DNA of 64,000 nucleotides from Salipiger thiooxidans (GTDB lineage: Bacteria > Pseudomonadota > Alphaproteobacteria > Rhodobacterales > Rhodobacteraceae): positions 1 through 64,000 of the forward strand of contig NZ_FNAV01000016.1 in NCBI RefSeq assembly GCF_900102075.1, read 5' to 3'. A program made the translations under genes and the position numbers. Below the pieces are notes generated by a model, which was not told the origin of the DNA, made no database searches, and saw nothing but the letters and a program-made list of their open reading frames with translations. Positions 45,223 to 59,562 of the stretch are shown in pieces (the stretch's first letter is position 1; every line of letters starts with the position of its first letter).

Positions 45223-45753
45223 TCAGAACAACGTGATCTCGCCACTCGAAGGCGGCGGAGGTGCCACAACCGGCGGGGCGACCCGTTCAACCTCACCCGG
45301 CACGATGAATTGTTTCACGCGGCCGTCCGTCGGCCAGAAGCGGATCCGCCGCGCCGCGTTGCCCCCGGTGCTCTCGGATGCGATCGGGATCCCTTCGGAC
45401 TGAAGGAACTCTCGGGCGAAGGCGACGTTCGACACCCCGATGTCGCGCAATTGCGTGAGCATCTTGGCACCGCCGAAGAGCTTCGCAGTCATCCTGTTCT
45501 TGCGTGCACCGCGCTTCAAGAGACCGTTGATCAGGAGCTCCATCGAATATGCTCCATAGCGCACATCCTCGCCCTCACGTCCGGCCCGATGCGGCAGGAG
45601 GAAGTGGTTCATGCCCCCGATCTTCGCTTCGGGATCAGTGAGGCAGACTGCGGCACAGGACCCCAGGACGGTAGAGAGCACACAGGCCGGATCGTCGGAT
45701 ATGCGGTATTCGCCCTGGATCACGTTGATCAGCTTTTCGGGTCCTTCGATCAT
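45223..45753 (-). CDS. cheD: Chemoreceptor glutamine deamidase CheD
   Basis: A 176-residue deamidase that matures chemoreceptors by converting Gln to Glu in methylation regions. Catalytic Cys33 and His50 are in VLGSCAAVCL and GGMNHFLLPH, spaced 17 residues apart as in Thermotoga CheD. KLFGGAKML and the C-terminal GNAARRIRFWPTDGRVKQF motif are also family features. It has a proline-rich tail. It overlaps cheB by four bases (ATGA) and is the last gene of the chemotaxis operon. Confidence 0.94.
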   Translation of the reverse strand: MIEGPEKLINVIQGEYRISDDPACVLSTVLGSCAAVCLTDPEAKIGGMNHFLLPHRAGREGEDVRYGAYSMELLINGLLKRGARKNRMTAKLFGGAKMLTQLRDIGVSNVAFAREFLQSEGIPIASESTGGNAARRIRFWPTDGRVKQFIVPGEVERVAPPVVAPPPPSSGEITLF

Positions 45754-46829
45754 CGTGTCGTCATCCTCTGACTGGGACTTGCCTGTGGTGGCGCCGCGCA
45801 GGCGCGCAGGATCGCCGGGCCGATCTGTTGCAGCGGCAGGCTGGATTGCGCTGCGCCAAGCTCCATCGCTGCACGCGGCATGCCGTAGACGATGCTGGTG
45901 GCTTCGTCCTGTGCCATGGTGACCGCCCCTGCATCGCGCAGCGCGCGCAGTCCCTCGGCGCCATCGCGCCCCATGCCGGTGAGCAACGCTGCCACGGCGC
46001 GCCGCGCACCGGGGACCGCCGAGTGGAAAAGCGCGTCCACCGACGGCATGTGCCCGGTGATCGGCTGCCCGGGTTCCAGCACGATCCGCAGCGGGCTGCC
46101 TCCGGCCAGACGCATATGGGCGCGGCTGCCCGCCGCCAGAAGAATGTCCCCATGGCTGGCGGTCGCACCCTCCGCGGCTGGCCGCACCCGCGCCGCACAT
46201 TGTCTGTCGAGCAATCGGGTTAAGCTGTCCCCGAAGCCCCCGCCGGTATGCTGCACGATGAAGGTCGGCGGACAGTCGGCGGGGAAGCTGGAGAGAACGG
46301 TGAGCAGGGCATCGACCCCGCCGGTCGAAGCGCCGATCACGATGAAACGATTGGTTTTTGCCCTGTCCGGCACCACATTGGACGGAGGCGTGGGGCGGGA
46401 CGTGGGAGGGGTTTCAGTCCGAGGTGGGACTGGCGATACGCCATGGCGCCTTGCGGTCCGCGTAACGCTTCGCAGCGTTTCCACGAGGCGATCGGCAGGG
46501 ATGTCGGTGTCGATCGGGAACAGGTCAGACGTCCGTCCCCATGGTGAACCCTGATCACGCGCCGAGGCATCAGGCACCTCGGTGATCACGAGCCAGCGCA
46601 CGTCGAGCGTCGCAAACAGCGCGCGCATCACCTCAAATTCCGGAGCGCGCGCGAGCCGCCCCGCGATGACCACGGCCATCGGTTCTCGTTCCTCGACCTC
46701 GGCATAGGTCGTCATGAGATCGCGGGTCTCGGCGACGATCTCGATCCAGGGCGAGGCGCCGAGTTCTTCGGTCAGCCTTCGGCGCACGGATCTGTCCGGA
46801 ATGGCGATGACCAGCGAAATCGGATTCAT
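45750..46829 (-). CDS. cheB: Chemotaxis methylesterase CheB with degenerate receiver
   Basis: A 359-residue CheB. The C-terminal methylesterase (about 158-345) has the catalytic triad Ser168 (GASTGG), His194 (VQHTGGG) and Asp289 (GMGRDGAEG), so esterase and amidase activity is expected. The N-terminal region (1-125) keeps a receiver-like fold pattern, but the phosphoacceptor Asp and the acidic pair are missing: the usual LDxxMPxMDG segment reads VVIAGRLARAPEFE. A proline-rich linker spans 132-155. Control by CheA phosphorylation therefore looks lost. It starts 127 bases after the small DxxxQ gene. Confidence 0.92.
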   Translation of the reverse strand: MNPISLVIAIPDRSVRRRLTEELGASPWIEIVAETRDLMTTYAEVEEREPMAVVIAGRLARAPEFEVMRALFATLDVRWLVITEVPDASARDQGSPWGRTSDLFPIDTDIPADRLVETLRSVTRTARRHGVSPVPPRTETPPTSRPTPPSNVVPDRAKTNRFIVIGASTGGVDALLTVLSSFPADCPPTFIVQHTGGGFGDSLTRLLDRQCAARVRPAAEGATASHGDILLAAGSRAHMRLAGGSPLRIVLEPGQPITGHMPSVDALFHSAVPGARRAVAALLTGMGRDGAEGLRALRDAGAVTMAQDEATSIVYGMPRAAMELGAAQSSLPLQQIGPAILRACAAPPQASPSQRMTTR

Positions 46830-46956
46830 CGGCGTCCTCTTTCTGGTTCAGTACCGCAGCTTTCAACGGTCCACGGTGATGCTTGCGTTGCCGGTGCCCC
46901 GGGCGGGCCACCGGAATGGCGGGTCCGTCCCGCCGAACAGTCGCGTTCGGGCCCTG

Positions 46957-47313
46957 TCAGAACAGTTCCGGCGCGTTGGCCGACAGTTCTTCTAGGTGGC
47001 GCCCGGCAAGTCGACTTCGCAACTCGCGCAGCGGCACCTGCGACAGCTCGGGCGTGAGGTCGACACGGGTGTCGTCTGCAAAACGCGAGGACAGTTTCTC
47101 GACATATGCCGCCAGCGCGTCAGTGGATTGCGCAAGCATGTCGAGCTCCTGCAGGGCGGTGATCGCCACTGTGCCAAGGGATGCGCCGCCGGCGGCATAG
47201 AAGGCCTCCATCCCGTGTTCGAGTCGCTCGAGCCGAAATTGCAGCCGACGGATCTCCTGCGACAACAGCAACGAGGCCTTTCGAGGCGAGAGTTGGACAT
47301 CGGTCAGGGGCAT
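46957..47313 (-). CDS. Small chemotaxis-operon protein with CheZ-like DxxxQ motif
   Basis: A 118-residue, mostly helical protein. Residues 10-35 and 50-77 look like two long amphipathic helices. The second contains ALQELDMLAQSTDALAAYVE, in which Asp58 and Gln62 form the D-xxx-Q pattern used by CheZ to dephosphorylate CheY-P. CheT of Sinorhizobium meliloti, also from a che operon, is reported to use such a motif as I recall. The gene starts one base after the cheY stop (ATG 47313). I infer a CheY-P phosphatase or CheY-binding role; overall sequence similarity to CheZ is not evident. Confidence 0.65.
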   Translation of the reverse strand: MPLTDVQLSPRKASLLLSQEIRRLQFRLERLEHGMEAFYAAGGASLGTVAITALQELDMLAQSTDALAAYVEKLSSRFADDTRVDLTPELSQVPLRELRSRLAGRHLEELSANAPELF

Positions 47314-47314
47314 G

Positions 47315-47701
47315 TCAGAGCTTTCCCACCACACTTTCAATGCACTGCTTCATCGAGAGCGAGGTGAAAGGCTTTTTGATCATGTTGTTGAGGCCCCACT
47401 TCTTGGCGGCGGAGACCATATCTGGCGTCGGCTTTCCGGTGACGAGGATGAATCCAATCCGTTGCGTCGCCTTATTCTGGCGCACCGCCTGCAGCAGCCC
47501 GAGTCCGTCCATGTTGGGCATATTGAAATCGGACAACACAAGATGGACCGGGTTGGCGGAGAGCCTTGCAAGCGCCTTCTGGCCATCGTTTTCGGTCAGA
47601 TAGTTCTTGATCCCGATCTCATCGAGCGCCTGGGTAATCAGGCCCCGGGTCGTGGCCATGTCGTCGACCACCATGATGCGTAGCGAATCTTTCAGACTCA
47701 T
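47315..47701 (-). CDS. cheY: CheY-type response regulator
   Basis: A 128-residue single-domain receiver with acidic pair Asp13/Asp14, phosphoacceptor Asp58 (LVLSDFNMPNMDG), Thr88 (ILVTGK) and Lys110 (IKKPF). Being complete, it should be phosphorylated by CheA and bind the flagellar motor or serve as a phosphate sink. It is one of two CheY proteins in the operon and lies between cheR and the DxxxQ protein gene. Confidence 0.93.
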   Translation of the reverse strand: MSLKDSLRIMVVDDMATTRGLITQALDEIGIKNYLTENDGQKALARLSANPVHLVLSDFNMPNMDGLGLLQAVRQNKATQRIGFILVTGKPTPDMVSAAKKWGLNNMIKKPFTSLSMKQCIESVVGKL

Positions 47702-47710
47702 TTTTGTCTC

Positions 47711-48580
47711 CTAGGTCGCGGTGGCACTGCTCGCACCCGGTTTCTTGCGATAGGTCGTGACGCCGGCAGTGGTCAGCGCTTGCAGCGCCGGGCCAGTGAC
47801 ACGCTCGGAATGGCCGATGAAAAGGAAGCCGTCATCGCGCAACATCTCGGCGAAGCGGTTCCAGAGCGTCTGTTGGGTCTCCTGGTCGAAATAGATCGCC
47901 ACATTGCGGCAGAAGATCGCGTCGAACGGTCCGTGGAAGGGCCATGGCTCGATCAGGTTAAGTTCAGCGAACGAGATGAGCTTCCTGGTCTGGTCAATCA
48001 TCTCGAAAGCCCCAGAGGGATCGGCGACTGGCTTGGTCCAGCTCTTGCGGAGGTCTGGCGGGATCGAATCGGCTTCTTCCCGAGGGTACTGCCCGGCGCG
48101 CGCGCGGCGAACGACCGCCGGGTCGATGTCGGTGGCGAGGATTCGGACGTCTGTCCGCGCACTATCCGGAAGCACGTCGAGCAGCGTCATGGCGATCGAA
48201 AACGGCTCTTGACCGGAGGAGCATCCCGCCGACCAGATCCGCACGCGGGATTGCTTTCCCAGCGCTGGCGCGAGTTGGGATCTGAGTGTTTCGAAGTGGT
48301 GCTTCTCACGGAAGAAGCTCGTGACATTGGTGGTCAGGGCGGAGATCAGTTCGAGCCGCTCTTCGGCCTCGTCAGACTTGCCAAGCAGATTCATGTAGTC
48401 CTGAAACCGGGCGATGTTCCTGGCACGGAGCCTTCGGGCCAGGCGCGAGTAGACCAGTGGCTTCTTGCTTTCTGACAGGCTGAGTCCGAACTCTGCGCGG
48501 GCGAGACGGGCCAGCGCACGAAAGTCATCGTCGGTGAAATTGAACTCCCGCGGACCCAGTTCTGCCGGGGCGATGCTCAT
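47711..48580 (-). CDS. cheR: Chemoreceptor methyltransferase CheR
   Basis: A 289-residue SAM-dependent methyltransferase that methylates receptor glutamates. The N-terminal helical domain (about 15-75) is followed by a Rossmann methyltransferase domain with VRIWSAGCSSGQEPFSIAM (SAM site), LATDIDPAVV and DAIFCRNVAIYFD, ending LFIGHSERV. It overlaps cheW by four bases and precedes cheY by nine. Confidence 0.94.
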   Translation of the reverse strand: MSIAPAELGPREFNFTDDDFRALARLARAEFGLSLSESKKPLVYSRLARRLRARNIARFQDYMNLLGKSDEAEERLELISALTTNVTSFFREKHHFETLRSQLAPALGKQSRVRIWSAGCSSGQEPFSIAMTLLDVLPDSARTDVRILATDIDPAVVRRARAGQYPREEADSIPPDLRKSWTKPVADPSGAFEMIDQTRKLISFAELNLIEPWPFHGPFDAIFCRNVAIYFDQETQQTLWNRFAEMLRDDGFLFIGHSERVTGPALQALTTAGVTTYRKKPGASSATAT

Positions 48581-49044
48581 ACCGCCCCTCCCATGTCGTT
48601 ATCGAGGACTGCGTCGAGGTTGACGACTCGCACCATGCTCTCACCCACCGAGATGACGCCGAGGATGGCCTGCCGCGCCGCTTCGGATTTGATGTCGGGC
48701 GTTTCCTGGATCGCCGACTTGTCGACCGAGAGGATCTCAGAGACGGATTCGACGAGGAGGCCGATGGTGGTTCCGCCAGCGGCGGCTACGATGACCACGT
48801 TGCGTTCGTTGTCGGCGGTGGTGCCGAGCCCGAACCGAGCGGCGAGATCGAAGATGGGGATCACTGCGCCGCGCAGATTCATGACGCCCAGCACATCGTC
48901 CGGCGTGTGGGGAAGCTTCGTCACCGGGGTCCAGCGGCGGATCTCGCGGATCTGGGTGATCTCGAGGCAGAAGCTCTGGTCGCCGGACGAGAAGGTGATG
49001 AACTCGAACTGAGTTTCGGTGGGCGCTTCGACGACGTCAAGCAT
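48577..49044 (-). CDS. cheW: Chemotaxis coupling protein CheW
   Basis: A 155-residue CheW with the family's tandem SH3-like folds: FITFSSGDQSFCLEITQIRE at the N terminus, LRGAVIPIFDLAARFGL in the middle, and GLLVESVSEILSV. It bridges chemoreceptors and CheA. It overlaps cheA by eight bases and cheR by four, so translation is coupled. Confidence 0.94.
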   Translation of the reverse strand: MLDVVEAPTETQFEFITFSSGDQSFCLEITQIREIRRWTPVTKLPHTPDDVLGVMNLRGAVIPIFDLAARFGLGTTADNERNVVIVAAAGGTTIGLLVESVSEILSVDKSAIQETPDIKSEAARQAILGVISVGESMVRVVNLDAVLDNDMGGAV

Positions 49045-51184
49045 GGCGCAGCTCCATTCTGGCTGAGGATGCGGGCGGCAGGAACGGCGCCGCTGGGTTG
49101 AGTTTCACGAGCTCGTCGGGATCCAGGATCAGGGCGATCTTGCCATCGCCGAGGATGGTGGCGGCGGAGACGCCTGGGATGGCGCCGTAGTTGCTTTCGA
49201 GGCTCTTGATCACGACCTGTCGCTGGTCGTGGATCCCGCCGACACGAAGGGCGGTCAGACCCTGCGTCTCGGTGCTGACCAGCAGGAGTACACCGCCGCT
49301 GATGTCGGTCTCGCCTGCGGAGAGGCCGAGATTGCGCGCCACGTCGACAATGGGGACATAGGCGCCGCGGACCGAGATCACCTCGCCGCTGGTGCCGATG
49401 TAGTGCAGGTCCTTGCGGTTGGGTCGGATGGTCTCGATGATCGAAGCGATAGGAATGACCATGGTCTGGTCGGAGATGGAGATCACGAAGCCGTCCATGA
49501 CCGCGAGTGTCAGCGGCAGCACGATTGTGAAGGTCGTGCCATTACCAGGGGCGGAGCTGATGGAGACACGACCGCCGAGCCCGGCGACGGCATTCTTGAC
49601 CACGTCCATGCCGACGCCGCGGCCCGAGAGATTTGAGACCTCGGAGGCGGTGGAGAAGCCGGGCAGGAAGAGGAGGTTGTCGATCTCTTGCTCGGAGAGC
49701 TCGGCGTCGGGGGAAACAAGACCCTTCTCAACCGCCTTCTCGAGGATGCGCGGCCGGTTCAGGCCCGCACCATCGTCGGCGATCTCGATGAACACGCTGC
49801 CCGAGCGGTGCGACGCCGACAGGCGGATGGAACCGATCGGGTCCTTGCCTGCCTCGAGCCGCTTCTCGGGTGCCTCGAGCCCGTGGTCGACGGCATTGCG
49901 CACCATGTGGGTAAGCGGGTCGGCGAGACGTTCGATGACGGTCTTGTCGACCTCGGTCGAGTCGCCGACGGTCACCAGCTTCGACTTCTTGCCGGTCGCC
50001 TCGGAGGCTTCGCGGACGATACGGGACATGCGCTGGAAGAGCGGCTTCACCGGCTGCGCGCGGATCGCCATGACGCCTTCCTGGATGTCGCGGGCCAGCA
50101 GCTTGTAGGCCTCGAGCTCGTTGGTCAGGTGCGCCACTGCGGGCAGTTCCAGCTCTTCGATGCGCTGCGAGATCATCGCCTGGTTGATGATCAGCTCGCC
50201 CACGGTGTTGATCAGCCGGTCCACCCGTTCGAGATCGACCCGGAGCGTGGGGCGGGGGCCACGCGGCTCGTCGCGCGGGGCGGCCTGCTTCGCGCCGCCC
50301 TTCGACGAGGATGCGACCTGGACGAGAGCGGGGGCGGGGTCATCGTCGTCCTCGCCATCGTCCTCCATGTCGGGAAGGTCGATGAGGGAGGGCGCGGCCG
50401 GGCTTTCGATATGGGCCGGCGCAGGCTGCGGATCCGCGTCCTCGCAGACCGAGATCTCGAGATCGCAGAGCGCGTCGACGAATTCGAAGATCTCGTGCAG
50501 GACGGTCTCGTCCTCGGCGGTCTCGAGCGAGAGCTGCCAGTCGATCACCGCATCGTTGGGATCGAAGGCGTCGAACTCGGGCAGACGGCCCAGGTCGGCG
50601 CTGACCGACAGCGCGCCGAGCTCGGCCAGGGCGTCGAAGAGCAGCAGCGGCTCGTGACCGTTGGCGTAGAGCGCCGGGGTGGGGTTGAAGCGGATGTCGA
50701 AGCGCCGCACCGAGGCGACCTCGTCCGGCAGGTCGAGAGCCACGGGCCCCGCATCGAAATCGAGGCTCATCGCATCGAAGGAGAACTCTTCTTCCTTGTC
50801 GGCGTCGCCCAGATGCGCCTCGAGCTCCTTGAGGATCGTGGCCTCGGACTCGGCATTGGGCTCACGGCCGTCGCGAGCCGCCTCGACAAGGTCGGCGAGC
50901 TGGTCGCCCGATCGGTGGAAAAGCAGCATCAGCTCTTCGTCGACCTTCAGCACCTGCGAGCGGACCTTGTCCATCACCGTCTCGAAGGTGTGAGCGAAGC
51001 TCACCAGCCGGTCGAGCGCAAAGGCCCCGGCGCCGCCCTTGATCGAATGCACGGCGCGGAAGACGGCGTTCACCACCTCCATGTCCTCGGCGTTCTCTTC
51101 CATCGCCGAGAGACCCTCGACGAGCGCCTCGAGGAGCTCTTCGCATTCTTCGAAGAATGTATCGCGGATCGAGTTTGTCGACAT
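49037..51184 (-). CDS. cheA: Chemotaxis histidine kinase CheA
   Basis: A 715-residue kinase with an N-terminal HPt domain (His46 in AVHSIKGGAGAF), a CheY-binding-like P2 region (about 155-250), an acidic/proline linker (about 260-310), dimerisation domain (about 315-375), HATPase domain (HMVRNAVDHGLE, IADDGAGLN, GRGVGMDVVK) and a C-terminal CheW-like domain (about 555-705). It phosphorylates the CheY proteins of the operon. It starts three bases after the upstream cheY stop. Confidence 0.95.
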   Translation of the reverse strand: MSTNSIRDTFFEECEELLEALVEGLSAMEENAEDMEVVNAVFRAVHSIKGGAGAFALDRLVSFAHTFETVMDKVRSQVLKVDEELMLLFHRSGDQLADLVEAARDGREPNAESEATILKELEAHLGDADKEEEFSFDAMSLDFDAGPVALDLPDEVASVRRFDIRFNPTPALYANGHEPLLLFDALAELGALSVSADLGRLPEFDAFDPNDAVIDWQLSLETAEDETVLHEIFEFVDALCDLEISVCEDADPQPAPAHIESPAAPSLIDLPDMEDDGEDDDDPAPALVQVASSSKGGAKQAAPRDEPRGPRPTLRVDLERVDRLINTVGELIINQAMISQRIEELELPAVAHLTNELEAYKLLARDIQEGVMAIRAQPVKPLFQRMSRIVREASEATGKKSKLVTVGDSTEVDKTVIERLADPLTHMVRNAVDHGLEAPEKRLEAGKDPIGSIRLSASHRSGSVFIEIADDGAGLNRPRILEKAVEKGLVSPDAELSEQEIDNLLFLPGFSTASEVSNLSGRGVGMDVVKNAVAGLGGRVSISSAPGNGTTFTIVLPLTLAVMDGFVISISDQTMVIPIASIIETIRPNRKDLHYIGTSGEVISVRGAYVPIVDVARNLGLSAGETDISGGVLLLVSTETQGLTALRVGGIHDQRQVVIKSLESNYGAIPGVSAATILGDGKIALILDPDELVKLNPAAPFLPPASSARMELRHA

Positions 51185-53891: not shown

Positions 53892-54257
53892 TCAGCAGTC
53901 TGCGAGCGGGGCAGCCTGCTGCAGCGCGGCCTTGAGGCGCGACGTGTGCACGGGCTTGAGGCAGCATTCAGCCTGCGGGTAGCGGGTCTTGATTTCGTGG
54001 TCGTTTACGTGGCCGGAGTGGAACACCAGCCCCACGCCCATTTCCTGCAGCCGGTCGGCGAGAGGATAGACCTCGCCGTCCTTGAGGCTAACGTCGAGCA
54101 CCGCCATGTCTGGTCGGGTTTCGCCGATCTCGCGCATCGCGTTCGACACGGACGCAAAGGGGCCGATCACTTCGAAGCCGAATTCCTCGATCAGCAACTG
54201 GAGGTCCAGCGCGACGATATATTCGTCCTCGCAGAGCAGCACCTTCGACTTTGGCAT
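53892..54257 (-). CDS. Single-domain response regulator (LovR-like context)
   Basis: A 121-residue receiver domain without an output domain: acidic pair Glu10/Asp11, phosphoacceptor Asp55 (MAVLDVSLKDG) and Lys101 (CLKPVH). The VSLKDGEVYPLA pattern is that of receivers paired with HWE-family kinases in alphaproteobacteria. It starts four bases after the stop of the CheB-CheR-PAS-HWE kinase, its likely partner. It may act as phosphate sink or phosphatase, as LovR does for LovK in Caulobacter. An ATG at 54284 would give nine more residues and overlap the kinase. Confidence 0.88.
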   Translation of the reverse strand: MPKSKVLLCEDEYIVALDLQLLIEEFGFEVIGPFASVSNAMREIGETRPDMAVLDVSLKDGEVYPLADRLQEMGVGLVFHSGHVNDHEIKTRYPQAECCLKPVHTSRLKAALQQAAPLADC

Positions 54258-54261
54258 GGCA

Positions 54262-57200
54262 TCAGCTCCGGCTGTCAGGGGCATAGGTCAGGGTCATCCT
54301 TCGTTCGTGGCTTCCATACTCGACGGACACCTGTCCATTCAGCTGTACGGCGGAGAGCTGCACGAGCGTCGAACCAAATCCCGACGCTCCATCTGACGGC
54401 TCAACCTCCTGCCTGTGGATTTCGTTCCATGTCAAAATCACATGGCCGCCCCGTTCGAGACGCCAGGTTACTTCGAGGTGCCCGTCTGCGGGGCCGAGCA
54501 CCCCGTATTTGGCGGCGTTCGTGGCCCATTCATGGAGCAGCAGCGAGAGCGCTGTGAGCTCCTGGCTGGCGATCGGAACCACCGGTCCCTCAATGCGGGC
54601 GACGGCCTCGCCCGAGTAGGGCTCGAGCGAGGCGCGGATCGTCTGTTCGAGCGTCAGCGTCTGCCGGGCGGGGGCGTTCTGGGTCAGATCGTGCGACCGC
54701 GCCAGCGCGTTCACCCGGGTCTGGATGCCGTCCACCAGGTCCTCGACCGAGTCGGTGGTGCGGCTGGCAAGACGCACCATGCCCGAGATGATCGAGAACA
54801 TGTTCTTCACGCGATGGTTCATCTCGCGCAGCATCATCTCGCGGATCTGCTTGGCTTCCTGCTCTTCGGTCACGTCGAAGAGCACGCCCAGCACCCGTGC
54901 GGTGCGGCGCCCGTCGACCCGTCGCCCGACGATCTGGATCGAGTGGGCGCGGGGCTCGTCGCCCGCGAGGCTGCACACGACCTCGACCGGATCGCCCGAC
55001 TCGGTGAGTGTGGTCATGGACGTAACGATGTCGGCGCGCGAATCTTCCCGGAAACAAAGGAGGAATTCCTCGAGAGAGAGCACCGGGCTCTCGGCCCCGA
55101 GGCCGATGCAGGCGGTCTCGTCGAGCTTCATCACCCGGGTCGACGGGTCGAATTCCCAGACCCCGAGCGAGGTCACGTCAAGCGCCAGCCGCAGCCGTTC
55201 GCCCTCGCGCTGGAGCGCGTCCTCGAGCCGCAGCGCGTCGGTCAGCTCGGTGAACACCAGCGTCGCGCCGTCAAGTACGCCGTCGCGGGTGCGGTAGGGG
55301 GTGATGACCAGCGACCATGTGCGTTCCTCGGCGCGGTCCGAGACACGCAGGTGGCGCACGTCGCCGTCGTGCATCACCTCGGCGATGGTCTCGAGCACCT
55401 CGTCGTTGCGGCGCAGGGTGCTGGTGACCTCTGCCAGCGGGCGGCCCCGGTCGGTTTTGCGGAACGGGTAGATCGACTGGATCGCGTCGGTGTAGTTGCG
55501 GATCGACATATCTCGGTCGACGACCACCAGCGGCAGGGCGGTGGAGGCGAAGAAGTTCGAAAGATCGGCGTTGGCGCGCGACAGCTCGTCGACCTTGCCC
55601 TTGAGCTCGTCGTTGACCGTCGAGAGCTCCTCGTTGGTCGACTGGAGCTCCTCGTTCATCGACATCATTTCTTCGTTGGAGCTCTTCAGCTCCTCGTTCG
55701 CGGTCTCGAGCTCCTCGACGGTGGTGTGCAGCCGCACGCGGGTGTTGCGCAGCTCGTCCTCGAGGCTCTGGACGTGGCTGTCCATGTTGTCGAGATCGTC
55801 GAATTCCTCGTCGTCGTAGGCCTCGAAGCGGTCGCGCTCGCGGAAGACCAGCAGGATGGTGCCGTCCTTCAGCGGCTCGGCGATCAGGTCGAAGGCCTGA
55901 AGGCCGAATTCAGACCGCGCCGAGAGCCCGCGCGAGATGGTGCGGCGCTTGTTGGCGCTGACCTGCCGGATGATGGCCGAAAGCGCCTCGCGCGCGCCCG
56001 GGCGGGCGATGGAGGTGGCGAAGCGGTTGGTGTCGGGATCGCCCGGCGCGTATTCGAGATACTTGCCCAGCCGACCGGTGGTCTTGAGGATCTCGCCAGC
56101 GGTGGTCACCCGCAGCGTCGCCGGGGCATAGGTCGAGAGCAACCGCTCGGTGGCCCCGCCGTCGCCCCAGTCAAGCCGCTTGGACGGGGTTCTGTCGGCC
56201 TCGGCATGGCGCGCCCCGCCGCTGACGGGCAGGCTCCGGCCGCGCAGGTGCATCGGGTACTCGGGCCGGGTGTCGTTGCGCTGGAAGATGCGCGCGCTCT
56301 GATCGAGCGGTGCGAAGGCGTGGTCGTAGCGGCCGACGGTCTCGGACGGCCCGAGGAACAGCGTCCCGCCGGGCTTGATGGCGTAGTGGAAGATCGGCAG
56401 CGCCAGCCCCTGCAGCTTTTCCCCGAAGTAGATCAGCAGGTTGCGGCAGGACAGCAGGTCGATGTTCGAAAACGGCGGATCGCGCACGATGCTGTGCACC
56501 GAGAAGCGGATCATGTCGCGGATGCGGGCGGAGATCTTGAACCGTCCGTCGCGCGCGACGGTGTAGATGTCGCGCATCCCCTCGGGGATGTCGATCAGCG
56601 CCGCCTGCGGGTAGGTTGCATCGCGCGCCAGCCGCAGCATCTGCTCGTCGATGTCGGTGGCGAAGATCTGGATGTTGACCGAGCGGTTCTGCAGCCGGGC
56701 CTCGTCGGCGAACATCATGGCGATGGTGTAGGCTTCCTCGCCGCTGGAGCAGCCGGGCACCCAGACCCGGATCTCGTCCTCGTCGCCGGCGTTACGGATC
56801 AGCGGCTCGATCACGCGCTCGCGCAGCGCGGCGAAATGGGCGGAGTCGCGGAAGAAGCGGGTGACGTTTATCAGCAGTTCGCGGAACAGGATCTCGCATT
56901 CCTGCGGATCGGACTTGATGTGGTCGAGGTACTCCTTGGCGCTGCGCAGGTCGAGCACCTGGATGCGCCGCTGCACGCGCCGAATCAGCGTGCTTTTCTT
57001 GTAGCCCGAGAAATCGTGGCCCACAAAATTGCGCACCACAGAGCAGATGTCTTCGAGGCACTGCTCGACCGTGTTGGCCAGGGTGCCATCGATGGTCTCG
57101 ATGAAGGCGTGGGAGTAGAATTGCTGGATCGCCTCGACGATGTCGCCGGGGCGGCGCACGAAGTCCACGAGCCCGGTGCCCTGCGCCGAGGTCGGCATGC

Positions 57201-57723
57201 CGTCATACTTGGCGGTGCGCGGATCCTGCACGATGCAGAGCCCGCCGTTCTCCTTGATGGCGCGCAGCCCGGCGCTGCCGTCGGCGCCGGTGCCCGACAG
57301 GATCACGCAGGCGGCGAAGCGGCCCTGGTCCAGCGCGAGGCTCTCGAAGAAATCGTCGATGGGCCGGCGCAGGCCGCGCGGCTGCTCGAACTCGGTGAGG
57401 TGCAGCACGCCGTTGGTGACCGAGAGGCCGAAGCCCGGCGGGATGATGTAGACGTTCCCCGCGAGGATCTTCTCGCCGCCCGACACCTGCCGCACGTTGA
57501 GCGCGGTGTGTCGGGCGAGAAGCTCGGCAAGCAGGCTCTCGTGGTTGGGGTCGAGGTGCTGGATCACCACGTAGGCGAGATTGCTGTCCGAGCGGGCCTC
57601 GGTCAGCATCTCGCGGATCGCCTCCAGCCCGCCGGCTGAGGCACCGATGCCCACGATGCAGAGGCGCTCGCGGTCCGGCTCGCTCGACACGGTTGTCTGG
57701 TCGTCCTTTTTTTCGTCTCTCAT
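54262..57723 (-). CDS. CheB-CheR-PAS-HWE hybrid histidine kinase
   Basis: A 1153-residue cytoplasmic multidomain protein. It begins with a CheB methylesterase (about 20-205: Ser29 in GIGASAGG, His56 in VIQHLDPNH, Asp in GTGADGS), followed by a CheR methyltransferase (about 220-480: VWVPGCSSGEEAYTIAM, SCRNLLIYF). A long coiled coil (about 655-735, repeated ELxxxNEEL), two PAS-like domains (about 740-845 and 865-960), and a C-terminal HWE histidine kinase (EMNHRVKNMFSII phospho-His box; HEWATNAAKYG) complete it. It probably senses a signal through PAS or partner proteins and phosphorylates the adjacent receiver. It lies 27 bases downstream of the LOV gene. Confidence 0.93.
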   Translation of the reverse strand: MRDEKKDDQTTVSSEPDRERLCIVGIGASAGGLEAIREMLTEARSDSNLAYVVIQHLDPNHESLLAELLARHTALNVRQVSGGEKILAGNVYIIPPGFGLSVTNGVLHLTEFEQPRGLRRPIDDFFESLALDQGRFAACVILSGTGADGSAGLRAIKENGGLCIVQDPRTAKYDGMPTSAQGTGLVDFVRRPGDIVEAIQQFYSHAFIETIDGTLANTVEQCLEDICSVVRNFVGHDFSGYKKSTLIRRVQRRIQVLDLRSAKEYLDHIKSDPQECEILFRELLINVTRFFRDSAHFAALRERVIEPLIRNAGDEDEIRVWVPGCSSGEEAYTIAMMFADEARLQNRSVNIQIFATDIDEQMLRLARDATYPQAALIDIPEGMRDIYTVARDGRFKISARIRDMIRFSVHSIVRDPPFSNIDLLSCRNLLIYFGEKLQGLALPIFHYAIKPGGTLFLGPSETVGRYDHAFAPLDQSARIFQRNDTRPEYPMHLRGRSLPVSGGARHAEADRTPSKRLDWGDGGATERLLSTYAPATLRVTTAGEILKTTGRLGKYLEYAPGDPDTNRFATSIARPGAREALSAIIRQVSANKRRTISRGLSARSEFGLQAFDLIAEPLKDGTILLVFRERDRFEAYDDEEFDDLDNMDSHVQSLEDELRNTRVRLHTTVEELETANEELKSSNEEMMSMNEELQSTNEELSTVNDELKGKVDELSRANADLSNFFASTALPLVVVDRDMSIRNYTDAIQSIYPFRKTDRGRPLAEVTSTLRRNDEVLETIAEVMHDGDVRHLRVSDRAEERTWSLVITPYRTRDGVLDGATLVFTELTDALRLEDALQREGERLRLALDVTSLGVWEFDPSTRVMKLDETACIGLGAESPVLSLEEFLLCFREDSRADIVTSMTTLTESGDPVEVVCSLAGDEPRAHSIQIVGRRVDGRRTARVLGVLFDVTEEQEAKQIREMMLREMNHRVKNMFSIISGMVRLASRTTDSVEDLVDGIQTRVNALARSHDLTQNAPARQTLTLEQTIRASLEPYSGEAVARIEGPVVPIASQELTALSLLLHEWATNAAKYGVLGPADGHLEVTWRLERGGHVILTWNEIHRQEVEPSDGASGFGSTLVQLSAVQLNGQVSVEYGSHERRMTLTYAPDSRS

Positions 57724-57750
57724 GATCGTGTCGAAACTGCTCCCAGGCCC

Positions 57751-58299
57751 CTAGCGCCGTTTGTCGTCGAAGCTGAGTCGCGCCATCATCGCGACGGAAT
57801 CGGCGATGAGCTGGGCGGAACCCATCATCGCCAGTCCGAATTCGCGACCGATCTGGTCGAGGTCGGTCAGCGCGTTGGCCAGCTGTTCATCATTCTGCGC
57901 GATGCGCGAGCGCTGCATGGCAGAGCTCATGTCGAATTGTGAGGCGAGGATGAAGCGCACCTTGCCTTCGGGGTCGCGCAGCCGCGACATGAAGACGAAG
58001 TTGTGAAAGCTCGTGCCGTCCTTGCGGTAGTTCAGGATCGGGAAGCGTCCATTGTCGTCGCCGGCGCCGTGCACGAAGTCATGCAGGGCCTGCCGCTGCG
58101 CCCCGGAGGTGCCGGTGCCTTGCAGGAAGCGGCAGTTCTTGCCCATGACCTCGTCCTGCGAATATCCGGTGAGCTCGCAGAAGGACCGATTGACGATCGA
58201 CAGCGGCGCGTCCTCGGCCATCTCGGAAACCGCAAGCGCGACGCCGGACTGCGCGATGTAGTCGCGGAACGTGGTGGGCAGGGCGGAATAGAGGCTCAT
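57751..58299 (-). CDS. Short LOV blue-light photoreceptor protein
   Basis: A 182-residue protein with one LOV domain (about 15-125) and a helical C-terminal extension (125-182). The photoactive signature GKNCRFLQG (53-61) has adduct-forming Cys56. The flavin-contact residues Asn90 and Asn100 (NYRKDGTSFHN) and the signalling Gln121 (ASQFDM) are all present, so light-driven flavin-cysteine adduct formation is expected. It has no output domain, like the short LOV proteins of Pseudomonas and Dinoroseobacter. It lies 27 bases upstream of the PAS-HWE kinase in the same operon, which suggests that light modulates the kinase. Confidence 0.9.
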   Translation of the reverse strand: MSLYSALPTTFRDYIAQSGVALAVSEMAEDAPLSIVNRSFCELTGYSQDEVMGKNCRFLQGTGTSGAQRQALHDFVHGAGDDNGRFPILNYRKDGTSFHNFVFMSRLRDPEGKVRFILASQFDMSSAMQRSRIAQNDEQLANALTDLDQIGREFGLAMMGSAQLIADSVAMMARLSFDDKRR

Positions 58300-58581
58300 C
58301 TGGGACGGTCGCAGGTCTGGAGGTGGGGCGCAATGACGGGTTCTGAGGGCATCTGACGACTAGATGCATCGCTTGCGCAGCGAGGCAAGGGGAAACGGGT
58401 CGAATTCGCATATGTTGCTGACCTGCCCGCGCGGCATGCCGGTCCCGGGGCTCCGTCACCGCGGTGTGATCGGGCGTGAGCGCCTGCGGCCCCCCGCCGT
58501 GGTTTCCCCGCTCCGGAAAGCTGCCATGTTCAGGGGGTGCCCCTTCGCCCGACCCCGTCCCTGCCGCCGCCGGAGCCCGCC

Positions 58582-59562
58582 ATGTTCTCACGCCGCCGTT
58601 TCATCGTCGCCTCTGCCGGGGCGCTTGCCGCGCCCTCGGTCCTGCGGGCACAGGGCGCCGAGACCCTGCGCGAGGCCGCAACCGGGCTCGACCAGCTGCA
58701 TGCCATCCTCGTGCAGCGCGGCGACGAGACGCTGCTGGCCGAGGCGCCGCGCGGGCCGGGGCTCGGCCGGGTCGCAAATATCAAGTCCTGTTCCAAGAGC
58801 GTGCTGGCGCTGCTGCTCGGGACGGCCATCGAACGGGGCGAGGTCGCCGGGCTCGACGCCACGCTCTCCGAGGTGGCGCCCGATCTGATCCCGTCGGACG
58901 CCACCGAGGGCGCGGGCGATCTCACCATGTCGGACCTCGTCACGCTGCGGGCGGGACTCGAGGGCACCTCGGGCGGCAATTACGGCGCCTGGGTCAGGTC
59001 GCGCAACTGGGTGGCCTATGCGCTGCGCCAGCCGCGCGTCGCGCCCAACGGCGGGTGGATGATCTATTCGACCGGCACCACCCACGTGCTGGGGGCCGCG
59101 CTCGCCACCGCCACCGGCAAGAGCCTGTTGCAGCTCGCCCGCGAGCGCCTCGGCACGCCGCTCGGCATCGAGGTGCCGGCCTGGACCCGCGACCCGCAGG
59201 GCTTCTACTTCGGCGGCAACGAGATGGCGCTCACCCCCGAGGCAATGCTGCGGATCGCGGTGCTGATGCGAGACGGCGGCGCCTGGGACGGCACGCAGGT
59301 GATCGCGCGCGACTGGGTGACCCGTTCGCAGGAGGGGCAGACACGGTCGCGCTGGTCGGGGCTCGACTACGGCTACGGCTGGTTCCTGAGCCCCAGCGGC
59401 TGGACCATCGGCCGCGGCTACGGCGGCCAGATCATCGCGGCGCAGCCCGAGCGTGGGCTGGCGGTGGCCATAACCTCGGACCCGACGCGCCCGGCGCGGT
59501 CGGCTGGCTATTTCGGCGACCTGATGGCGCTGCTCGACGGGCCGGTGCTGGGGCTGGCCTGA
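58582..59562 (+). CDS. Tat-exported serine hydrolase (beta-lactamase family)
   Basis: A 326-residue periplasmic hydrolase of the serine beta-lactamase/class C esterase superfamily. It has a twin-arginine signal (SRRRFIVASAG, cleavage near ALRAQ, residue 24), the SxxK catalytic motif Ser69-xx-Lys72 (KSCSKSV), a Tyr162 motif (IYSTGT) and a C-terminal GRGYGGQ motif in place of the KTG box. It may act as an esterase, amidase or peptidase on cell-wall or small substrates. The ATG at 58582 gives the Tat signal; it is convergent with the AI-2E permease gene. Confidence 0.88.
   Translation: MFSRRRFIVASAGALAAPSVLRAQGAETLREAATGLDQLHAILVQRGDETLLAEAPRGPGLGRVANIKSCSKSVLALLLGTAIERGEVAGLDATLSEVAPDLIPSDATEGAGDLTMSDLVTLRAGLEGTSGGNYGAWVRSRNWVAYALRQPRVAPNGGWMIYSTGTTHVLGAALATATGKSLLQLARERLGTPLGIEVPAWTRDPQGFYFGGNEMALTPEAMLRIAVLMRDGGAWDGTQVIARDWVTRSQEGQTRSRWSGLDYGYGWFLSPSGWTIGRGYGGQIIAAQPERGLAVAITSDPTRPARSAGYFGDLMALLDGPVLGLA

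Follow-up and report, generated by a model that had tools for sequence, protein, structure and literature searches.

A short LOV photoreceptor as the likely in-trans blue-light input of an adjacent CheB-CheR-PAS-HWE histidine kinase in Salipiger thiooxidans

The short LOV protein encoded in a 64,000-nucleotide stretch of the Salipiger thiooxidans genome (contig NZ_FNAV01000016.1, positions 1 to 64,000; hereafter the window) is, in our judgement, likely to be the dedicated in-trans blue-light input of the CheB-CheR-PAS-HWE histidine kinase encoded next to it, with output via a single-domain receiver and probably the PhyR-NepR-EcfG stress pathway. A preliminary description of this DNA had suggested a three-component light-input pathway. 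The proteins are indeed separate and their linkage is strongly conserved, and for these two reasons a pathway of LOV, kinase and receiver is the best reading of the locus; the light response, the binding, the phosphotransfer, and the stress output are inferred. If the reading is true, a light-driven stress pathway would have its sensor and its kinase in two separable proteins, an arrangement of use in optogenetics, and a class of CheB-CheR fusion kinases could be assigned a signal.

All three genes lie on the minus strand. The LOV gene (57751..58299, 182 amino acids, recognized from its open reading frame and PDB matches) is followed after an intergenic gap of 27 bases (57724..57750) by the kinase gene (54262..57723, 1153 amino acids) and then by the receiver gene (53892..54284, 130 amino acids, Pfam Response_reg), which, if translated from its first ATG, shares 23 bases with the end of the kinase gene. 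The receiver is a PRK13435-type response regulator, with a score below the curated cut-off. The preliminary description had placed the LOV gene correctly, omitting its strand, and the open reading frames and Pfam bear out what it said of the neighbors: the spacing, length, and CheB-CheR-PAS-HWE order of the kinase, the receiver beyond it, and the division of sensor and methylesterase- and methyltransferase-bearing kinase between two proteins. Upstream of the LOV gene and divergent from it lies a beta-lactamase-family gene (58537-59562, plus strand), relatives of which, 55-57% identical, occur about 4-7 kb from the module in two head-to-head genomes (L065:338-1348; L091:13325-14290).

The LOV protein comprises an N-cap (residues 1-26), a LOV core (27-126), and a C-terminal tail (127-182). 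Pfam recognizes PAS_9 (29-125, E 1.7e-14) as its sole fold, and what marks it as a LOV domain is its matching of phototropin, EL222, and LOV kinases in the PDB. Cys56, Asn90, Asn100, and Gln121, named earlier as the photochemical residues, are found at exactly those positions, and the reported lack of an output domain agrees with the length of the protein and the PAS fold alone. The core thus carries the adduct Cys, two Asn, and Gln with no fused effector, as in short LOVs, and in a tree the protein groups with RsLOV and not with LOV-HK or DsLOV-like LOVs. On these residues and this placement it is an RsLOV-type short LOV, predicted to bind flavin and to form the adduct. The Cys, both Asn, and the Gln are invariant in all 29 rows of an alignment of kinase-paired LOVs. 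Structure prediction gave a fairly confident core (pLDDT mostly 71-91) and a helical tail below 50, models 3-5 being much worse. Among 13 non-redundant co-directional LOVs, the mean top-residue frequency is 0.51 in the tail (146-175), 0.43 in the linker (127-145), and 0.62 in the core; for 12 head-to-head LOVs the corresponding values are 0.45, 0.35, and 0.62.

A lack of conserved linkage between LOV and kinase in relatives was among the outcomes named beforehand as refuting the proposal; the linkage proved to be conserved. A family sample of 295 genomes was searched with the window LOV, and all 29 short-LOV loci (28 among the matches listed that have an open frame of at most 320 amino acids, the window's own included, plus G091, which was added and whose LOV frame overlaps a longer antisense frame) were scanned for neighbors by tblastn. 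A CheB-CheR kinase neighbors the LOV in 17 of the 29. Among these listed matches, 17 of 21 short LOVs within the window's LOV clade are kinase-paired, against 0 of 8 outside it, and LOVs in longer proteins (L066-L077, 334-992 amino acids) have a CheB-CheR match in 0 of 12 loci, six of which match the HWE query. The 12 short-LOV loci without a CheB-CheR kinase are L045, L046, L047, L052, L055, L057, L058, L059, L060, L061, L063, and L064 (in L057 and L064 the contig ends on one side). The conserved linkage also means that the gene set in the window does not consist of chance open reading frames.

The pairing occurs in two layouts. The co-directional arrangement of the window is found in seven genomes of the family sample (G000, G088, G192, G107, G222, G262, and G217) and a head-to-head arrangement in ten (G253, G006, G171, G047, G051, G149, G050, G226, G153, and G091). 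Named co-directional loci are those of three S. bermudensis strains, a Maritimibacter MAG, and Phaeobacter sp. 22II1-1F12B; LOV-kinase gaps in 12 relatives were counted from the first possible start codons. Of 29 paired rows, 28 have a receiver adjoining the kinase; BLAST showed it in 25, and reading of open reading frames in three more (L049, L050, and L056). The sole module with no receiver beside the kinase is L041, in G222, where a Crp-type regulator gene (L041:8531-9271) separates LOV from kinase. Eight loci were read from 253 plasmid records with a LOV match: five carry the module (Sagittula stellata, Novosphingobium resinovorum, Sphingomonas sp. R1, Sphingobium yanoikuyae, and Rhizobium rhizoryzae), and three, from Shinella, Haematobacter, and Palleronia, have no module and LOVs in longer proteins (378-485 amino acids). 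The pairing is thus seen across three orders of Alphaproteobacteria. A class-wide scan at E <= 1e-18 gave matches in 10 of 385 genomes, the window's own included; at the four class-wide loci checked (L095, L097, L100, and L102) there was no CheB-CheR match within about 1.5 kb.

Judged by sequence, the window module matches RsLOV of Rhodobacter sphaeroides in sensor type and, by way of a genome with an identical LOV, in the kind of locus. The LOV of G295 (L091) shares all 175 aligned residues with PDB chain 4hj4/4hnb and differs from 7obz in one residue (99.4% identity); PMC4335406 names 4HNB as RsLOV. It lies head-to-head with a CheB-CheR-PAS-HWE kinase and a receiver, so the gene types are those of the window, whose own layout, unlike this one, is co-directional. 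The two LOVs fall in the same short-LOV clade, both have a C-terminal tail past the LOV core, and they are 28% identical over 166 residues. The LOV of L051 can be aligned over its full length with the RsLOV crystal chains. An intact LOV-kinase pair is present in four of five genomes examined in the genus of G295 (L051, L091, L092, and L094); in the fifth, G297, an RsLOV-type LOV and the receiver are still open, but the kinase has broken down to a remnant (L093:7100-8435). A 2022 paper states that, up to its own finding of PmlR2, nobody had identified a protein to which RsLOV, DsLOV, or the P. putida proteins bind (PMC9758184). The conserved linkage offers a concrete partner candidate to fill that stated gap for RsLOV-type short LOVs. 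The RsLOV type of the sensor, the wide spread of the pairing, its second, head-to-head layout, and the stress pathway in the genome all go beyond the preliminary description.

Comparison with known systems sets the module apart. In LovK/LovR of Caulobacter, LOV and HWE kinase are joined in one protein, and the partner of LovK is a single receiver. LovK, EL346, and RT-HK share a LOV input and an HWE kinase with the window module but are single polypeptides (for EL346 and RT-HK, see PMC10359499 and PMC12148442), whereas the module is divided between two proteins and its kinase has CheB and CheR added. A closer parallel in organization is PmSB-LOV of Pseudomonas mendocina, which, according to PMC9758184, acts in trans on PmlR2, the product of the adjacent gene. 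Both are stand-alone short LOVs beside a partner gene, a candidate one in the window, but PmlR2 is a MerR-type DNA-binding regulator and the candidate here is a kinase. The DsLOV-like LOVs (after DsLOV of Dinoroseobacter shibae, PDB 4kuk) are short and effector-free like the window LOV but lie outside its clade, and at the five such loci read (L052, L055, L057, L059, and L061, the last labeled by its best PDB match, 4kuk, and the others by the tree) a kinase was found in none, L057 offering only about 0.5 kb on one side. Among openly licensed papers we found none that describes the pairing of a short LOV and a CheB-CheR kinase; an earlier mention is possible.

The histories of the two genes were compared in trees. 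In the LOV tree (LOV frames of at least 210 amino acids cut to the last 185 residues, unpaired ones to 200; L072 and L073 omitted), the paired LOVs, whatever their layout, fall with L045-L047 and L058 into a single clade of 33 rows (100/100), L058 being a long branch whose placement there is unsure. LOV distances correlate with those of the CheB-CheR end (r 0.90) and the HWE end (r 0.84) of the kinase, both raw values with no species-tree control; L038 (the same as L003) and L093 (with the broken kinase) are left out. L113 is left out of both kinase trees, and the near-duplicates L004, L006, and L092 of the one that takes in LOV-less relatives. In that tree 12 head-to-head rows group together (100/100) with LOV-less L123 as their sister, 14 co-directional kinases fall in a clade of 15 (100/98) whose fifteenth member is LOV-less L122 (G280, at a contig end), and LOV-less L120, L121, and L124 are sisters of the co-directional clade. 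These LOV-less kinases weaken a strict one-to-one pairing, and their position beside both paired clades implies either an old pairing lost several times or a pairing that arose twice; the single LOV clade favors the former.

The window kinase has CheB (residues 24-199), CheR_N (224-273), CheR (286-475), PAS_10 (721-828), and HWE_HK (967-1045, E 9.5e-15) domains by Pfam, and the same five were found in all 18 LOV-paired kinases scanned, nine of each layout. It starts directly with CheB_methylest, with no N-terminal receiver, unlike chemotaxis CheB. Among six aligned proteins, S29/H56/D148 and G324-E330 are invariant, as are H970, N1069, and W1099/E1101; we take these to be the CheB catalytic Ser-His-Asp, the CheR SAM-binding residues, and the HWE residues, respectively, so that the kinase would retain the first two sets and, with its HWE_HK domain and H, N, and W-x-E residues, belongs to the HWE kinases. 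The region adjoining the HWE domain (54856..55230, minus strand, about residues 832-956) is PAS-like and unrecognized by Pfam at E 0.001; a kinase model of mean pLDDT 47.5, used for secondary structure alone, has PAS-like strands there (block pLDDT mostly 60-80). The corresponding region is a clear PAS_4 in nine of nine head-to-head kinases and at best a weak PAS_3 (three of nine) in co-directional ones.

Between CheR and PAS_10 lies a helix (55540..55767, minus strand, residues 653-728; VEELETANEELKSSNEEMMSMNEELQSTNEEL...) with Glu-type pairs (EE, DE, EQ, QE, or QQ) at heptad spacing, five to eight in number, which in the window begin at residue 670. Matches to this helix in 24 genomes, compared by eye, fell in CheB-CheR genes or a directly continuing open reading frame in 40 of 40 cases. 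All 29 LOV-paired kinases and all 10 full-length unpaired ones have a run of at least five pairs, with L113 (split) and L122 (contig end) set aside. Among 404 open reading frames of at least 300 amino acids, a run of at least three is seen in five that lack the CheB motif string; four of these derive from CheB-CheR genes, as pieces or variants, and the fifth is an annotated chemoreceptor (run of three) whose neighboring chemoreceptor has a run of two. The helix resembles the methylation helix of chemoreceptors, although heptads would be expected of a plain coiled coil too. We raise, as a speculative and rather unlikely extension, that the kinase is a self-adapting, chemotaxis-like receptor-kinase with a detachable photoreceptor, in which the fused CheR and CheB would methylate and demethylate the Glu helix in cis and so reset the response to steady light, and into which varied photoreceptors (short LOV and, once, a bacteriophytochrome) would plug. 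Adaptation inside one kinase molecule could be tested directly on this helix by mass spectrometry.

HWE kinases commonly feed the PhyR/NepR/EcfG stress pathway. In the window's genome, PhyR, NepR, EcfG, and an HWE/HisKA_2 kinase lie together on contig C25, and all 20 module genomes tested, from 16 genera, have NepR. In a family sample of 100 genomes NepR was found in 46, comprising all 7 that carry the module and 39 of the remaining 93 (Fisher 0.003, uncorrected for phylogeny). It is also present in all six LOV-kinase genomes of that sample that lack the module (G018, G048, G058, G062, G065, and G066; LOV in a frame of 334-450 amino acids at E <= 1e-10 among the matches listed), so it is not specific to the module and marks light/HWE signaling in general. 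Published work reports a link from a LOV-HK to PhyR in Rubellimicrobium (PMC12148442) and an effect of RsLOV on photo-oxidative stress genes (PMC4335406, PMC4844311), and a stress output of the module fits the latter. The kinase output would feed the receiver and probably PhyR-NepR-EcfG. In such a pathway light would produce a flavin-cysteine adduct in the short LOV, as its residues predict, and the adduct, by analogy with RsLOV, would shift the LOV dimer state or the pose of the C-terminal helices. The LOV would then dock on or release the kinase, most likely at the PAS/coiled-coil segment; the kinase would autophosphorylate at the HWE histidine and hand phosphate to the adjacent receiver; and phosphate might reach PhyR, directly or by competition, whereupon PhyR would draw NepR off EcfG, the parts for which are present.

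Other roles for the pair were weighed. LOV domains can sense redox state, that of LovK reportedly doing so, and the main reason for keeping this LOV with the kinase might be flavin/redox or oxygen sensing, with light secondary. The Crp-type gene between LOV and kinase in G222 would suit such a role, as would the TspO gene facing the unpaired kinase relative of G280, but the adduct Cys, dispensable for redox sensing alone, is invariant in all 29 paired rows, and we think it improbable.

That the module serves chemotaxis or phototaxis, with CheB and CheR acting on chemoreceptors and the LOV biasing swimming, we regard as very unlikely. A che cluster (CheA, CheW, CheR, a CheY-like receiver, and CheB; 45750-51184, minus strand) lies 2.7 kb past the receiver in the window, its CheB gene having no receiver domain by Pfam at E 0.001; in Rhizobium rhizoryzae the module comes after two chemoreceptor genes; and RsLOV is reported to affect chemotaxis genes (PMC4335406). 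Yet the output is an HWE kinase and not CheA, the TPP-enzyme gene that separates the module from the che cluster is unmatched in L003-L007 (about 3-4 kb past the receiver), and no che or chemoreceptor gene lies within 8 kb of the module on the Sagittula, Novosphingobium, Sphingomonas, and Sphingobium plasmids, as far as their incomplete gene tables go. The che cluster as a part of the system was rejected, having left no trace beside the module in the relatives checked.

Equally hard to credit is that LOV and kinase are merely co-regulated, each with partners of its own. In its favor, LOVs of this clade occur without the kinase and the kinase without a LOV. The observations that count against a dedicated in-trans input are these: four of the 21 clade LOVs among the matches listed have no such kinase nearby (three adjoin dynamin-like GTPase genes); the G297 kinase has decayed while its LOV and receiver stay open; and in a reverse test of kinases at E <= 1e-150 to the window's, with the two best candidates scored per genome, 17 of 24 in the family sample were the LOV-paired ones, and the other seven (G185, G134, G280, G286, G230, G170, and G065), whose loci were read, have no LOV beside them. 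The LOV-less kinases share the domain order and Glu-type pair helix of the window kinase and differ from it in having no adjoining LOV gene. The P. mendocina short LOV, moreover, targets a MerR-type regulator (PMC9758184). Linkage kept across two layouts, and down to LOV identities of about 30%, is what speaks for the in-trans partnership instead. Random adjacency, at 17 of 29 loci, was rejected (rough binomial 7e-39 at an assumed chance of 0.2%, the rows being non-independent), and so was a fused LOV-kinase of LovK type, LOV and kinase being separate genes in 29 of 29 paired rows.

Several neighborhoods merit separate mention. Directly upstream of the G230 kinase is a bacteriophytochrome with HWE kinase and receiver domains (L124:9138-11687), and the LOV-less kinase of G134 adjoins a gene for a PAS-histidine kinase-receiver protein. 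The G280 TspO gene (L122:2254-2730) faces, at a contig end, a kinase relative 59% identical over the CheB-CheR part. Beside more distant CheB-CheR genes (L108-L117), several of which have a receiver nearby, no stand-alone sensor was recognized when open reading frame starts were read by eye. The RsLOV-type short LOVs of L045, L046, and L047 (G015, G294, and G058) adjoin dynamin-like GTPase genes (Pfam Dynamin_N), a second recurrent short-LOV neighborhood, and two of the three also follow a small protein with no Pfam match.
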